Part shown: positions 28,187 through 36,772 of the stretch, one piece after another
Position numbering within the stretch: the stretch's first letter is position 1
How the letters are laid out: the number at the start of each line of letters is the position of its first letter
Assembly: GCA_001447805.1 (NCBI GenBank)
Contig: CP013099.1
Coordinates: 868,001 to 932,000 of the forward strand
Reading direction: 5' to 3'
DNA from: Candidatus Tenderia electrophaga
GTDB taxonomy: Bacteria > Pseudomonadota > Gammaproteobacteria > Tenderiales > Tenderiaceae
DNA length: 64,000 nucleotides
Position numbers and translations under genes: made by a program
Notes under the pieces: model-generated
Told to the model about the DNA's origin: nothing
The model's database searches: none
Seen by the model: only the letters and a program-made list of their open reading frames with translations

Positions 28187-31030
28187 CTATTCGACCGCCT
28201 TGCCTTCGGTGTATTTGATGCTCGTCCCTGTCGGTACCGCGCCCATGTTGTGGGCGGTGTAGCTGGGCAGCGAGGTCAAGTCGACTGCGTTGGCGTCGCT
28301 TATATCGGGTTGCGTTCCATTGGGGAAATTTGTCACAACCCCGAGGAACAGGCTGGTATCCAGCGGCTTGACGAAATAGCGTGTGCCGTCATCACCGGTG
28401 GCCTCGGTGCCGGCCGCAATATGAACCACCTTGCCGGCGATGTCCGGTGTCATGGTCCAGCCGTTCTTTTCCAGCTCGTGGTACATGTCAGGCATGCCGT
28501 GCATCCAGCCGTCGAACTGCAGGCTGAGCGTGCCTTTGGCTGTGCCGGCGCTGTCCTGTACCGCCACGTTGTTCAGCGTGATCGGGTTGGACAGGATGAC
28601 GTAGTCGCCGTTGCTGTCTTTCAGAAAGCGCTGCTTGCCCCAGTTCTGGCCGTCACTCGGTTTTTCCCAGTTGAATTCCACCGGGCGTGTTTGACCAATG
28701 GGAAAGCCGTAGTCGTCAACCGCTACCGTTGTGCCATCGCCAGCAAGCGGGTTGCCTGACACATCGTAGGCAAACAGGCCCCATTTGGTATCGGCCACGG
28801 CGCCGACGGTGTTGTTGCCGGAGCTATCGGACAAGACTTCCAGCAGCAGATAGTTGGCGTCCGCCGGATCTTCGATCAAACTGTATTTGACATCTGTATT
28901 CCAAGGCGCCGCCAGATAAGACGTCCCTGCGGGCAGGATAGACGCCGTTGCAGACGAATCCGTGTTATCCGGATTGGCCGCATTCTGCAGTTCCCGTTTG
29001 ACATCATAGGAATTCGCAGCGTCGGCAGCATCTTTGCGTTTTACGATGTAATTGCTGCCGGCGGCGTTGATGTAGTACTCCTCATCCCGGCCCGGGTTGA
29101 ACGCAGTGTCGTTGTTGCCAAAGGTGGGCTGATTCGTAACCGGGTCTTCACCCAGATACTCTTTCTGAACCCAGCCTGTGTTGGCGCCGCTGAAATCGCC
29201 GGTGTATTGGATAAACAGCTGACCGCTGATGCCGGTGAACAGATTGTCTCCGCTTGCCGGCGTCAATTTTGCCGCCGGGCTGTTGGGCAAAGGACGACCG
29301 GTTTCGTTGTCGATATTGTCACCGGTTTCATAGAAACCCTCGCCGCTGTATGTGAAACCGCTGATGGCGGGGTCGGAGTCAAGGTACAGGTATTGCTTGA
29401 AGCTACCGTTGTCGTCACCGCCTACATATATCCAGCGTTGGTCGTTTTCCGCTAGGACCAATTGATTGAGATCGAAGGCGCTAAAGCCGTTTTCCGAACC
29501 TCCCTTGGAAGATCCATCGTGATTCTTACACTCGAGGGGATTCGCCCCCCAGTCAATCCAGCCATCCGCGCAGTAACGCCAGGCGTTGTTGATATAGAAC
29601 AGCTCATAGGATTTGTTGAGCCAGGTCTGGACCGGCACGCCTTTGATGTCGTCAAGGGTGGCGCTGACCAGATTACGTTTGGTGAACGTGCCGGCAAATT
29701 CGGCCATGGTGTAGGTCGGCGCGGTCTGGCCGGGCGGGACGTCGGCCTTGGTAAAGGTGGTGGGCGAGGCGTTAACGCCGTCGTCGACGACGAAGCCTTC
29801 CGGACCCCAGAGTTCATGACGACCCTGCCAGGCACCGTAATAGCCCCAGGCCTCGAACTGCTTAGTGTTGTCGCTGAGCGCTGTCATTTCATACCGCACG
29901 GGGAAGCCGAAGGACACCTTTTTCTCCACATTTTCGCCTTCGGCGATATTGTTGTTGGCATCACCCTCGGCGTAGAACAGGCCGTAGCGATGCACCATCT
30001 TGATTGCGCCGTCTAACTCACGGTCCTTAAAGACCGCCGGGTCGGATCCTTCCTGGACGCCGAGATAGTTGCCATTGTAAGAATATTTTGCGCTGTTGCT
30101 GGGGAAGGCGCTGAGCAGGGAGCAATCGGTGCCGCTATTGGGGTCGTAGCAGGTCTCCCAATCGGGATATTGCACCACACCGTAGCCTTCGTTAGCGCTG
30201 CGTATCAGCACACCCTTCATCTCTTCAATCAGGTCCCATTCATTGCGCATGCCGCGATCGACCACCTTCAGCGTGGTATTGCCGTTGGCGTCGATACGAG
30301 CACTGGCGGCGAAATAACCCTGCGGCGCGCTGGCGTCAACGCCCGTCGGATCGGCGTCGAAATAGACGTTCAGGTCCCATTCGCCGTAGTCTTCGAAGGA
30401 GCCATCGTCCGCCACGCTAGCGGAGGTGTAGATCTCGGCCTGTGCCTTAATGAGAGTCTCGGTGCCGTAATGGGGATCGGTCTCCGGAATCCAGAGCTGA
30501 ATCACGTTAACCTTCTGTGAGACGCCGCTGGTTGGGTGGGTGCCGTCCACCAGCTCGGACTTGACGGTCCAGGTTTGCAGTTGTTTGATATCGACGCCGT
30601 CGCTGTCTTCTTCCCAGGAGACGACGGCCTGATAGGCACCGGTGCCCACTTCGTCGGCATAGTTTGTTTGTGCCAAGGACGTCAAAATGGTTTCGATAAT
30701 ATCGAATTGCTCCAAGGCAGGTTCTTCGACAAAGGTTCTGCCCTTGGTCTTGACGTAATCTGAATCGGCCGGCAGGCCGCTGGCGGCCGCCGCTCTCGAT
30801 AAGCGATGAATGGCGTTGCTGAAACTGCCGGCGCTGGCCGCGGCGGAACTGCTGCCCGAGGCGGGAACCGCCGAAATTTCGGAGGGCAGGGTGTAACCCC
30901 TGCTGGTGGCGCTGCTACTGCTGCTGGACGAGCTACCGCCGCCCCCGCCGCCGCATGCAGTCAGACCAATGGTGATTGCCAGTGGAACGACACAGGTCAG
31001 CGGTGTCATTCGTTTATTCTTACTCTTCAT
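28187..31030 (-). CDS. Large lipoprotein of unknown function
   Basis: 947 residues. Signal peptide and lipobox LTAC are followed by a low-complexity linker of six Gly and eight Ser, then a long, aromatic- and Asp/Asn-rich secreted region. No catalytic motif is recognised. Two Cys pairs (CYDPNSGTDC and C-ADGWIDWGANPLE-C) could form disulphides, and many WG/YG and DDG turns suggest a beta-rich fold. Perfect ribosome binding site GAGGAGA lies before the ATG. No operon partner: a 384-base gap upstream and a terminator downstream. Probably outer-membrane anchored; substrate and role unknown. Confidence 0.8.
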   Translation of the reverse strand: MKSKNKRMTPLTCVVPLAITIGLTACGGGGGGSSSSSSSSATSRGYTLPSEISAVPASGSSSAAASAGSFSNAIHRLSRAAAASGLPADSDYVKTKGRTFVEEPALEQFDIIETILTSLAQTNYADEVGTGAYQAVVSWEEDSDGVDIKQLQTWTVKSELVDGTHPTSGVSQKVNVIQLWIPETDPHYGTETLIKAQAEIYTSASVADDGSFEDYGEWDLNVYFDADPTGVDASAPQGYFAASARIDANGNTTLKVVDRGMRNEWDLIEEMKGVLIRSANEGYGVVQYPDWETCYDPNSGTDCSLLSAFPSNSAKYSYNGNYLGVQEGSDPAVFKDRELDGAIKMVHRYGLFYAEGDANNNIAEGENVEKKVSFGFPVRYEMTALSDNTKQFEAWGYYGAWQGRHELWGPEGFVVDDGVNASPTTFTKADVPPGQTAPTYTMAEFAGTFTKRNLVSATLDDIKGVPVQTWLNKSYELFYINNAWRYCADGWIDWGANPLECKNHDGSSKGGSENGFSAFDLNQLVLAENDQRWIYVGGDDNGSFKQYLYLDSDPAISGFTYSGEGFYETGDNIDNETGRPLPNSPAAKLTPASGDNLFTGISGQLFIQYTGDFSGANTGWVQKEYLGEDPVTNQPTFGNNDTAFNPGRDEEYYINAAGSNYIVKRKDAADAANSYDVKRELQNAANPDNTDSSATASILPAGTSYLAAPWNTDVKYSLIEDPADANYLLLEVLSDSSGNNTVGAVADTKWGLFAYDVSGNPLAGDGTTVAVDDYGFPIGQTRPVEFNWEKPSDGQNWGKQRFLKDSNGDYVILSNPITLNNVAVQDSAGTAKGTLSLQFDGWMHGMPDMYHELEKNGWTMTPDIAGKVVHIAAGTEATGDDGTRYFVKPLDTSLFLGVVTNFPNGTQPDISDANAVDLTSLPSYTAHNMGAVPTGTSIKYTEGKAVE

Positions 31031-32598: not shown

Positions 32599-33366
32599 AT
32601 GAGCCAGCGTTTTTCCCTTCATTTTTCGCACCTGCCCTTGGTGCAACGGGTCCTCTATACCTGCACCCTGTGCGTGTTGGGGCTGGGCTACACCTTTGCC
32701 ATGATCTATATCTTCGCTTCGCATCATAGTCGCGACGGCAATGACATGCTGACCGTGCAGGACATTATTATCGCCTACAGCGGCAGCAAGAGCGGCACCC
32801 GGCTGGAGGCGGCGCTGAAGGGGCCCATGTCGGGCATGTTGCCGGCCGACGAGAATCTGAAGATCATCAGCTGGGTGCGCGACGGTGCCAGTGAAAAGGA
32901 ATATCAGCAAGGTATAAAACGAATTTTCGACAACCGCTGCATCACCTGTCACAACAATCGCAATCCCCATCTGCCCAGTCTGGAGGATTACGAATCGATC
33001 AAAAAGACCGCCGAGGAAGACAAAGGCATGGATGTGTTTACGCTGGTGCGCGTGTCACACATCCATCTGTTTGGGCTGACCTTCATCTTTTTTATCGTCG
33101 CCAGTATTTTTATTCACGCCTATATCCGCCATGAGTGGCTCAAGATTACGATCATGGTGATCCCGTTTATTTCGATCATTTTTGACGTCGCCTCCTGGTA
33201 TATCACCAAGGTCTTCGAGCCCTTCGCCTGGGTGGTGATCGGCAGCGGTACACTGATGGGGATTTGTTTTGCGTTGCAGTTTTTTATCTCCCTGTACCAG
33301 ATGTGGTTCTACCAACTGCCGGATGACGTGAAGATGCGCTTCTATTGTTCCGTGGTGGATGAATAG
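32599..33366 (+). CDS. Membrane-bound monohaem cytochrome c
   Basis: 255 residues from ATG 32599. Hydrophobic segment at about 17-41, a periplasmic loop containing one haem motif CITCH (C114-H118), then three further spans (about 152-175, 182-202 and 209-232). The histidine pair SHIHLFG just before the second span is a potential ligand or quinol-side feature. Not a described enzyme subunit that I can name. It lies 17 bases upstream of the six-haem gene, so the pair is probably one operon. A role in passing electrons between the quinone pool and periplasm is inference. Confidence 0.7.
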   Translation: MSQRFSLHFSHLPLVQRVLYTCTLCVLGLGYTFAMIYIFASHHSRDGNDMLTVQDIIIAYSGSKSGTRLEAALKGPMSGMLPADENLKIISWVRDGASEKEYQQGIKRIFDNRCITCHNNRNPHLPSLEDYESIKKTAEEDKGMDVFTLVRVSHIHLFGLTFIFFIVASIFIHAYIRHEWLKITIMVIPFISIIFDVASWYITKVFEPFAWVVIGSGTLMGICFALQFFISLYQMWFYQLPDDVKMRFYCSVVDE

Positions 33367-33383
33367 CCGGCGGGATTGGATAG

Positions 33384-35105
33384 ATGTTTCGTCCGGTCCT
33401 CCTGCTATTGGCACTGCTGCTATTAAGCGGCTGTGATCCCGTTTCTATGGCCGACGACAGTCCCTCGCCGGTGGGCCTGGCGCAGCCTTTTCCGGTGGTG
33501 GGCGATCCCGACAAGGGCCGCCAGGTGGCCGGGCAATGCGCCGACTGCCACGGTCTGGACGGTGTCAAGGCCGCCAGCGGTGCGCCGTTTATCGCCGGTT
33601 TGAAACAGCCCTATTTGGTACGCTCCCTGTTGGCCTATGGCAACGGTGCCCGCTCGCATGAAGGCATGAAACAGGTCAGCGAGGATCTCAACCCCATCAC
33701 CCTGGCCGACGTCACCGCTTACTATGCCGGTTTGGACACCCCCTGGCGCGGCGCGGTGGCCGGGCAGGCATCCAAGGCCGTACTCAAGGACGCCCAGGCG
33801 CGCCGCGCCGCCCGACACATCGTCGATGCCTGTCGTTCCTGCCACAGCCAGACCGACCGTTTTCAGCGCGAGCAGGCCATACCCAGCATCGACGGCATGG
33901 CGGTGGAATATTTCGTGCCGGCCTTGAAGAGTTATGTCAGCGGTGAACGCCACAACGAGATCATGGCCCAGTTCAAGGGCAGTTTGAGCGAGCAGGACAT
34001 CTACAACCTGGCCGCCTACTTCGCTGCGCGCAAACCGCAAAAGGCACCTCCCATGGGGGACGGCGACGCGGCCCGGGGCAAACTCGCCGCGCGTGCCTGC
34101 GCCGGTTGTCACGGTTATGACGGCAATAGCCTGAATCCGCACATCCCCAACCTGGCCGGGCAGTCGGCGCGCTACCTGGTCAAGGCCATCAAGGACTATC
34201 GCGACGGCGTGCGTGAATCGCTGTTGATGCGTGCCCCGGTGCGGGGGCTGGGTGACCGCGCCATCGCCGATCTGGCCGCCTACTACAGCCGACAGACGCC
34301 GCAGTCGCCCCTGCACGCGGATATTTCCTCTCCCAGGGCCTTCGATCCTCTGGCCGACGGCGAGCGCATCGCCGCCTCCTGTAATAGCTGTCATGGCCCC
34401 GGGGGTAACAGCGAAACACCGGGCGTGCCCAATCTTACCGGCCAGCATGTGAAATATCTCAGCCGCGCCACTCAGGCCTATCAACAAGGGCGCCGCGAGC
34501 ATGCCGCCATGCAAGAGATCGTCTCCTTTTTCAGCGACACCGATATTGAAAAGGCGGCCTATTGGTATGCGGTACAGACACCGCACAGCAGTCGCCGGCC
34601 GGGCCAGGGTGACCCCGCCCGCGGCGAGACCCTGAGCGACGCCTGCAGCAGTTGCCACGGCGAGGCCGGCATCAGCCCCGATCCGGCTACCACCCCCAGC
34701 TTGGCGGGGCAGGACGGCGCCTATTTGATCCAGGCGACGCGGGCCTATGCCGATGGCGGACGTGCGCACGAAGGCATGCGTGAAGTCGCCCAGCAGCTGA
34801 CGGATCAGGACCTGCGTGATCTGGCCGCCTATTACGCCCTGCAGACGCCGCGACAGGTCAAAACCTATCTCCCCGATAATCCCCAGCAGCTGGTCGAGCA
34901 GCGCTGCAGCCGTTGTCACGGCGAGCGCGGCTACAGCGAGCAACCGGGTGTACCGCGTCTGGCCGGACAGCTGGAGCCCTACCTGGTGCAGGCGATGAAG
35001 GAGTATCAACAGGGCATACGCAAGGACTCCGCCATGGTGGCCATGGCCGATGTCCTCAGTCTGCTCGAAATCAAGGCCATCGCCGCCTACTATGCCAAGC
35101 AGTAG
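33384..35105 (+). CDS. Six-haem lipoprotein made of tandem class I cytochrome c domains
   Basis: 573 residues. Signal peptide with lipobox LSGC (C17). Six CxxCH motifs lie at C52-H56, C150-H154, C239-H243, C333-H337, C421-H425 and C508-H512, spaced 84-98 residues. Each domain ends in a run like DLAAYYA, and each has a candidate axial Met (M95, M194, M282, M376, M465, M551 or M554). Domains resemble cytochrome c4/c553 units repeated six times. Likely anchored to a membrane on the periplasmic face and passing electrons along the chain. It follows the membrane cytochrome by 17 bases. Partner oxidoreductase unknown. Confidence 0.85.
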   Translation: MFRPVLLLLALLLLSGCDPVSMADDSPSPVGLAQPFPVVGDPDKGRQVAGQCADCHGLDGVKAASGAPFIAGLKQPYLVRSLLAYGNGARSHEGMKQVSEDLNPITLADVTAYYAGLDTPWRGAVAGQASKAVLKDAQARRAARHIVDACRSCHSQTDRFQREQAIPSIDGMAVEYFVPALKSYVSGERHNEIMAQFKGSLSEQDIYNLAAYFAARKPQKAPPMGDGDAARGKLAARACAGCHGYDGNSLNPHIPNLAGQSARYLVKAIKDYRDGVRESLLMRAPVRGLGDRAIADLAAYYSRQTPQSPLHADISSPRAFDPLADGERIAASCNSCHGPGGNSETPGVPNLTGQHVKYLSRATQAYQQGRREHAAMQEIVSFFSDTDIEKAAYWYAVQTPHSSRRPGQGDPARGETLSDACSSCHGEAGISPDPATTPSLAGQDGAYLIQATRAYADGGRAHEGMREVAQQLTDQDLRDLAAYYALQTPRQVKTYLPDNPQQLVEQRCSRCHGERGYSEQPGVPRLAGQLEPYLVQAMKEYQQGIRKDSAMVAMADVLSLLEIKAIAAYYAKQ

Positions 35106-35338
35106 TCCACGCCGCTGAGGCAAGCGGGGTATTGTTTCCTGGTTGTATGCCAGGGTGAACCAGTCCTGAAAATTTTTTAATGATTGTGCTGCCGGGCGTC
35201 CATAAACGCGCTAGAATAGACCTGTAATCCATGCGGGTATTCGCGAAAGGCTTGGTGAGCGAATAAATCATTGACCTTGCGCGCCGTCCGCATCGATACC
35301 CGCCTACAAGCGGGTGCAAACCTGTTCAAGAGGCTAGG

Positions 35339-35959
35339 ATGATGAAAACAACGCTGCTGATACTGCTCACCGCACTATTTGGGGTAAACGGAATTGCCAC
35401 CGCAGTCGAGGACGAGGGCTCCATTCAACGCGGCCAGGCCAAGGCCTTTTATTGTACCGGTTGTCACGGCTACAACGGCATGGGGGTAGGGGCCGCGCCG
35501 CCGCTGGCGGGCCAGGATAAAGCCGATCTGCTCGCCAAACTGAAGGCCTTTAAGCAGAAGAAATCCTCACTCATGGGGCTGCAGCTGGCCAGGTTCGAGG
35601 AGAACGACCTGAAGGATCTGGCCGCCTATTTTTCCTCGCTCAAGTCGACGCCGCCGGGGCAGGCCAGTTATGAACGGGATATCGAGCCTATTATCCAGTG
35701 GCGTTGTATCACCTGCCACAGCGCCGGTGGCGAAGGCGCGCGCAAAAGCGGTTTGGATCTGAGTAGCTACCAGGCGTTAATGGAGGGTACCAAGGAGGAT
35801 GGCGAGCTGATCGTGCCCGGTTCTCCGGAAACCAGCAGTTTCATGGTGATGGTGACACGCAAGGATCATCTGAGAATGCCGTTTGGGGCGCCGCCGCTGG
35901 CGGACGACGAGATCCGCGTGCTCAGAACCTGGATCGAGCAGGGCGCCAAAAACAATTGA
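35339..35959 (+). CDS. Periplasmic dihaem cytochrome c (class I plus PSCyt1-like domain)
   Basis: 206 residues with signal peptide ending around ATA. First domain: CTGCH (C39-H43), Met at about 79, and a DLAAYFSSL helix. Second domain: DIEPIIQWRCITCH (C123-H127), ...KSGLDLSSYQALMEG, ...LRMPFGAPPLADDEIRVLRTWIEQGA, the pattern of the planctomycete-type cytochrome c domain. Two ATGs in tandem at 35339; GAGGCTAGG lies just upstream. A 233-base gap from the six-haem gene suggests its own promoter. Confidence 0.82.
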   Translation: MMKTTLLILLTALFGVNGIATAVEDEGSIQRGQAKAFYCTGCHGYNGMGVGAAPPLAGQDKADLLAKLKAFKQKKSSLMGLQLARFEENDLKDLAAYFSSLKSTPPGQASYERDIEPIIQWRCITCHSAGGEGARKSGLDLSSYQALMEGTKEDGELIVPGSPETSSFMVMVTRKDHLRMPFGAPPLADDEIRVLRTWIEQGAKNN

Positions 35960-36380: not shown

Positions 36381-36583
36381 AGTCGTATCCCCTGTCCCCG
36401 AGAACGTGTCTGCGGATGTCCGCTGCCCTTCCGTAAAAAATAATAGATGAGTAATGCGCCCAATAAAACCACGATAAAAGAAAGATAATGGGCGCGTGAT
36501 CGATTTGTGAGTTTTGCGTGACAGTGTGGTGAGTCGTTGCCGCTGTAATGGACACGCTGAACCCGATCAATCAGGAGAAACCT

Positions 36584-36772
36584 ATGAACAGCAAATCAAT
36601 CAAGTTTTACACCGTTCCCGTCATGTTCGCCGCCGCCCTGGCGCTGGGTGCCTGCAGTGCTGATCCCATGATGTCGGACGACGGCATGGATAAGGGTATG
36701 GACACTCAGATGGATGACACTATGCAGGGCATGGACGGGACCATGGACGACAGCATGGATTCGAGCATGTAA
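36584..36772 (+). CDS. Small Met/Asp-rich lipoprotein
   Basis: 62 residues from ATG 36584, with AGGAG six bases upstream; an in-frame upstream ATG at 36548 lacks this and is not used. Signal peptide and lipobox LGAC (C24). The mature 38 residues after the cysteine hold 10 Met and 11 Asp in irregular GMD/TMDD repeats. Met-rich, acidic periplasmic peptides can bind Cu(I) or Ag(I), but there is no direct evidence of that here. Neighbours are cytochromes and tiny membrane proteins. Confidence 0.7.
   Translation: MNSKSIKFYTVPVMFAAALALGACSADPMMSDDGMDKGMDTQMDDTMQGMDGTMDDSMDSSM

Follow-up and report, generated by a model that had tools for sequence, protein, structure and literature searches.

The dodecahaem GSU1996-type protein of Geobacter is a periplasmic nanowire built from c7-type trihaem repeats with bis-His ligation. 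Cytochrome c4, at about 190–200 aa, has two class I domains in tandem, each with a CXXCH motif and a distal Met, and the quinone-linked proteins NapC, NrfH and CymA hold their c haems on the periplasmic face of the inner membrane, in a multi-haem domain with one transmembrane (TM) anchor. In Candidatus Tenderia electrophaga, a predicted hexaheme lipoprotein, Tel_04230, has been proposed as a route of extracellular electron transfer on account of its haem number; its transcripts cluster with those of cyc2, yet show no differential expression, and the roles of the candidate links into the membrane chain were called unclear (PMC5371394). The passages of that paper that deal with Tel_04230 describe no six-domain c4-like architecture, membrane partner or co-occurrence.

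Here, we analyze three cytochrome genes, P0001, P0002, and P0003, from a 64,000-nucleotide stretch of Ca. Tenderia electrophaga DNA (the window). P0002 is almost certainly Tel_04230, since two landmarks agree: 142 called genes lie between the Cyc2-like gene and P0002, where the tags Tel_03480 and Tel_04230 are 150 apart, and the genome (G000) carries an 11-haem gene with trihaem neighbors at 3.60–3.61 Mb, as the corresponding passage describes for Tel_16515-16545 (PMC5371394). An earlier note on this DNA had called the set undescribed, which does not hold for P0002 given the published account of Tel_04230 (PMC5371394) but stands for P0001, for which neither Pfam nor NCBIfam has a family above threshold. 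The novelty lies in the P0001 family, with its apparently permuted haem domain, and in its invariable presence where the multi-domain protein occurs.

RESULTS

Three genes carry nine haem attachment sites

The features of the locus are collected in Table 1. All three genes score as coding and are conserved at 35–89% identity, and we therefore regard them as real; the ATG of P0001 is backed by homologues that begin at the same residue. Counting CXXCH motifs gives 1 + 6 + 2 across P0001, P0002, and P0003, all on the + strand, which matches the nine haems over three genes that had been claimed from the sequence. P0002 begins 17 bases past the P0001 stop, and a gap of 233 bases separates it from P0003. 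A scan of this gap for promoters and terminators gave none that was convincing, with counts near those of shuffled sequence; P0003 may be a separate transcript from P0001 and P0002.

Table 1 Features of the three-gene cytochrome locus (positions in the window)
Feature	Position	Strand	Remarks
P0001 gene	32599..33366	+	255 aa, one haem site, homologue-supported start
Periplasmic haem domain of P0001, residues 47-147	32737..33039	+	profile comparison
Met77 codon of P0001	32827..32829	+	invariant in 42 homologues
CITCH haem attachment site of P0001, C114-H118	32938..32952	+	
SHIHLFG of P0001, residues 153-159, periplasmic end of TM2	33055..33075	+	
P0002, six-domain c4-like hexahaem lipoprotein	33384..35105	+	573 aa
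P0002 lipobox Cys17, Asp at +2	33432..33434	+	
P0002 domain 1 (CADCH, Met95)	33504..33767	+	
P0002 domain 2 (CRSCH, Met194)	33795..34049	+	
P0002 domain 3 (CAGCH, Met282)	34059..34301	+	
P0002 domain 4 (CNSCH, Met376)	34347..34583	+	
P0002 domain 5 (CSSCH, Met465)	34611..34850	+	
P0002 domain 6 (CSRCH, Met551)	34875..35102	+	
P0003, secreted dihaem, c4-like domain fused to PSCyt1 domain	35339..35959	+	206 aa

P0003 is, as the earlier note had it, a dihaem protein with a PSCyt1-type second domain. Its first, c4/c553-like domain (CTGCH) is recognized by Pfam as Cytochrom_C and is homologous to the P0002 domains in profile–profile comparison, and PSCyt1 (PF07635) covers residues 123–181 (E=1.7e-9; 38.6 bits against a cut-off of 22.0). 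The element conserved beside P0001 homologues is the PSCyt1 part, the extra c4-like domain being found in Tenderia and its close kin.

A porin-cytochrome conduit of the MtrCAB, PCC, or Cyc2 type was considered and set aside, as no barrel gene was recognized alongside and the modelled proteins are helical. Two further lipoprotein-type genes lie near the trio: a small Met/Asp-rich lipoprotein-like gene with repeated MDD/GMD between P0003 and purL (36548-36772), and, at 28187-31030, a 947-aa lipoprotein, Gly/Ser-rich at its start and devoid of haem motifs, which has relatives at the same place in members of the genus (L010, L065, and L066).

P0001 is a predicted inner-membrane monohaem protein whose haem domain reads as permuted

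P0001, a member of an uncharacterized family, is predicted to cross the inner membrane four times and to hold a single c haem on the periplasmic side. Four TM helices are predicted by both the structure model (pLDDT 86.5) and hydropathy, the haem domain lies between the first two of them, and CITCH is the only CXXCH motif; the membrane monohaem protein with CITCH and SHIHLFG that had been noted just upstream of the lipoprotein is thus borne out. In an alignment of 42 homologues (35–89% identity), the invariant residues are Y60, G62, G75, M77, W92, C114, C117, and H118, followed by D141, G143, S153, H154, H156, F158, and G159, and then P189, D196, W200, T203, and G217. Met77 is the proposed distal haem ligand, judging by its invariance and position, and below the haem, close to where TM2 and TM3 reach the periplasm, are H154, H156, D196, W200, and T203. 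A PDB sequence search with P0001 returned no match, the best Foldseek matches of its model in the PDB were no better than E=2, and the plasmid collection held no P0001 match.

The near-misses of P0001 among Pfam and NCBIfam profiles are halves in the wrong order. Specifically, a C-terminal segment of MoxG matches residues 73–99 and an N-terminal segment of PccH matches residues 102–146, both below threshold. PccH and Haem_bd give weak matches, and the PSCyt1 profile (PF07635) gives no match at its curated cut-off. We then compared P0001 by profile with the PSCyt1 part of P0003 homologues. In native order, only the CXXCH half aligned, with a score of 62.8 over 39 columns; exchanging the two PSCyt1 halves raised the score to 82.4 over 56 columns, in an alignment that begins just after Met77 and runs the C-terminal helix (LPADENLKIISWVRDGA) directly into the N-terminal helix. 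The Met half alone scored 28.2, against a maximum of 20.8 across 200 column shuffles. On the strength of the swapped-order and Met-half scores, the P0001 haem domain reads as a natural circular permutant of a PSCyt1-type domain, or an equivalent fused remnant. Both halves of PSCyt1 are matched, but in P0001 they stand in swapped order, with the Met-side helix and W92 first and CXXCH second, and the whole is placed between TM1 and TM2. A search for a permuted PSCyt1 or a six-domain c4 found nothing in the collection of papers covered.

P0002 consists of six c4-like haem domains

P0002 has six CXXCH motifs behind a signal peptide that ends in the lipobox LLLSGC-DP. Its CXXCH-His/Met pairs (56/95, 154/194, 243/282, 337/376, 425/465, and 512/551) keep a His-to-Met spacing of 39 or 40, and all six motifs and all six candidate axial Met residues are invariant in 12 homologues, so that the original description of six tandem class I domains, each with its own candidate Met, is upheld. 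The domains are mutually homologous (profile–profile probability 98–99.8% for all pairs), Pfam reports repeated Cytochrom_C, and the individual domains look like electron carriers of the c4/c552 type. In the AlphaFold model (mean pLDDT 78, pTM 0.75), every domain finds matches among c4 and c552 structures, and in the plasmid collection, matches were only 30–43% identical and pieced together from other c cytochromes.

Like cytochrome c4, which provides the best solved-structure matches (28–31% identity), P0002 has tandem class I domains with CXXCH and a distal Met. Unlike c4, it has six domains over 573 aa, is usually a lipoprotein, and is always found with P0001; we therefore describe it as c4-like repeats and not as a c4. 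It shares with the GSU1996-type nanowire the layout of a single chain of repeated periplasmic cytochrome domains, but its repeats are class I His/Met monohaem domains, which makes it an analogue and not a homologue.

P0001 and P0002 co-occur more consistently than they adjoin

P0001 homologues are present in 44 of 274 gammaproteobacterial genomes, whereas multi-domain (4–6 haem) P0002 homologues are present in 14, spread over eight families; other partners of P0001 must therefore exist. The 14 genomes comprise those with full-length six-domain homologues, one with a four-domain homologue, and one in which the gene is split across contigs. The matching P0001 clade occurs in 21 of the 274 genomes overall and in every one of the 14 (hypergeometric p 1e-18, with ancestry ignored).

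The two genes are nevertheless unlinked in 6–7 of these 14 genomes. In six (G010, G043, G074, G091, G206, and G215), the hexahaem gene lies on another contig than P0001, among housekeeping genes that are uninformative as neighbors, and in G111 the two lie on short separate contigs, with the pieces at contig ends. The association is therefore one of co-occurrence more than of neighborhood. Unlinking in relatives, which the earlier note had named as an argument against its proposal, does occur, but it fails to refute a partnership between P0001 and P0002 because the two genes are found together in 14/14. A P0001 tree groups the genomes that carry a multi-haem protein in a single clade (99/97), inside which the linked pairs form a derived subclade of 12 sequences (100/100), with a P0001–P0002 spacing of 13–90 bases or a slight overlap. 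The pair thus co-occurred first and adjoined later, which fits functional coupling. No catalytic gene recurs in the neighborhoods of the pair, in agreement with the suggestion that the set is a relay without an enzyme of its own.

We also asked which metabolic genes accompany the pair. Cyc2-like genes occur in 4/14 P0002 genomes and in 36/260 others (p=0.13), and SoxB exceeds the cut-off in 5/14 P0002 genomes and in 5/14 controls (P0001-bearing genomes without P0002), so that the association with iron or sulfur oxidation genes that the earlier note proposed to check is not borne out. Canonical ccoN (cbb3 oxidase) exceeds the cut-off in 9/14 P0002 genomes, without tracking P0002. RuBisCO is present in 13/14 P0002 genomes versus 9/14 controls. 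Taken together, neither iron oxidation, sulfur oxidation, nor cbb3 oxidase specifically marks the genomes that hold P0001/P0002. The pair belongs to autotrophs, although RuBisCO is common in the controls as well, and our best reading is a general electron relay of autotrophs.

DISCUSSION

A proposed two-part periplasmic relay and its alternatives

We propose, at about even chances, that electrons are relayed in the periplasm by P0001 and P0002 together, in a two-part system to which P0003 would be an accessory donor or acceptor. Alongside the observed domain anatomy, conservation, invariant co-occurrence, and derived linkage, we infer an electron-transfer partnership, an inner-membrane site, a link to quinone, and the direction of flow. 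The six haem domains of P0002 would serve as a wire or electron buffer and would connect P0001 with periplasmic cytochromes or with a conduit in the outer membrane. P0001 in turn would deliver electrons to the membrane-bound respiratory chain or draw them from it, most probably at the quinone pool. The P0001 haem would sit above the invariant His-x-His/Asp/Trp/Thr cluster, and this cluster could be a quinone or metal site; a quinone site here is a guess based on residue conservation, as no fold in the PDB matches P0001. Inward flow, from the outer membrane through the periplasm to P0002 and on to P0001, would be favored in an electroautotroph because it suits a cathode-fed autotroph. The role proposed for P0001, that of linking quinone to a c haem on the periplasmic face of the inner membrane, resembles that of NapC, NrfH, and CymA, but P0001 has one haem and four TM helices and shares no sequence similarity with them.

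A different reading makes P0002 an enlarged c4 that donates electrons to terminal oxidases, with shared lifestyle or ancestry accounting for its co-occurrence with P0001. The c4-like character of its domains, the presence of the c4 in the bc1-cbb3 supercomplex (8smr) among the best structural matches, and the single P0001 clade shared by the co-occurring genomes would fit. We nonetheless consider this reading rather unlikely, as no canonical ccoN exceeds the cut-off in 5/14 genomes, though other oxidases are possible, and as the genes became close neighbors in the derived clade.

The proposed relay would place P0002 in the inner membrane. Under the E. coli sorting rule, Asp at +2 retains a lipoprotein in the inner membrane, although the rule may not hold in this lineage. 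In most lipidated P0002 homologues, positions +1/+2 are Cys and Asp (or Glu), which argues for tethering to the periplasmic face of the inner membrane in most members and makes the outer-surface destination put forward in the earlier note the less likely reading. Were P0002 instead an outer-membrane lipoprotein taking electrons directly from a cathode or mineral, this would agree with the naming of Tel_04230 as a possible extracellular route by haem number and with its cyc2-like transcript pattern, as given in the published passages (PMC5371394). Besides the predicted inner-membrane retention, however, the homologues at L066 and L145 have no usable lipobox, no porin or beta-barrel gene was recognized in the P0002 neighborhood, and Cyc2 is missing in 10/14 P0002 genomes, and we judge such a surface conduit to be quite improbable.

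Other contexts of the P0001 family

The partners of P0001 vary. In the window's P0001 clade, a PSCyt1 gene adjoins P0001 in 14 neighborhoods, and the adjoining c4-like genes have one, four, or six domains; P0001 relatives adjoin other class I cytochromes with one domain (L070, L082, and L083), four domains (L084), or, in family f198, three. P0001 homologues occur in nearly all sampled genomes of f198, which is almost certainly Mariprofundaceae, marine iron oxidizers. There, the gene shares a block with HemN and a monohaem cytochrome, to which a trihaem class I cytochrome is often added; elsewhere it lies within [NiFe]-hydrogenase accessory operons or adjoins genes of fatty-acid synthesis. It is very improbable that P0001 is a redox or oxygen-protection factor for oxygen-sensitive assembly (anaerobic haem synthesis or hydrogenase maturation) with the cytochromes as sinks, since, for all that other family members adjoin HemN (in f198 and Gammaproteobacteria) or sit within hydrogenase accessory operons, the close relatives of the window's P0001 (57–89% identity) show neither link and have cytochromes as their only haem-gene neighbors.

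Returning to the relay, we tentatively extend it, with low confidence, to the whole family: P0001-type proteins would be a new inner-membrane haem oxidoreductase, with a permuted c domain over a His-x-His/Asp quinone or metal site and interchangeable class I partners of 1, 3, 4, or 6 domains, in electroautotrophs and nearly all Mariprofundaceae. Models of cathode uptake and of neutrophilic iron oxidation leave open how periplasmic electrons reach the membrane chain, and the P0001 family is a concrete candidate for this step; if the extension is true, the family would be a missing link from periplasmic cytochromes to the membrane in both processes.

Several further observations concern individual loci. 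HemN adjoins the P0001-family gene in two classes (L126, L128, L132, L137-L139, and L142; L072-L074 and L088), and the hydrogenase accessory/Hyp operons of f198 that contain the gene are L129, L141, and L143, probably from Ghiorsea-like Zetaproteobacteria. In f198, the gene is also found near a CCA-adding-enzyme-like gene. Genome G000 holds an Alternative-complex-III-like operon (C1:3566076-3575304) and a cluster of 4-, 3-, 3-, and 11-haem cytochromes that is known from Ca. Tenderia electrophaga (C1:3597800-3610222). It also carries two more P0001 paralogues at 38–41% identity, at C1:767598-768335 (L063) and C1:2534864-2535565 (L064), of which the former lies downstream of a transketolase-like gene and has an isoprenylcysteine-methyltransferase-like membrane protein as its neighbor.
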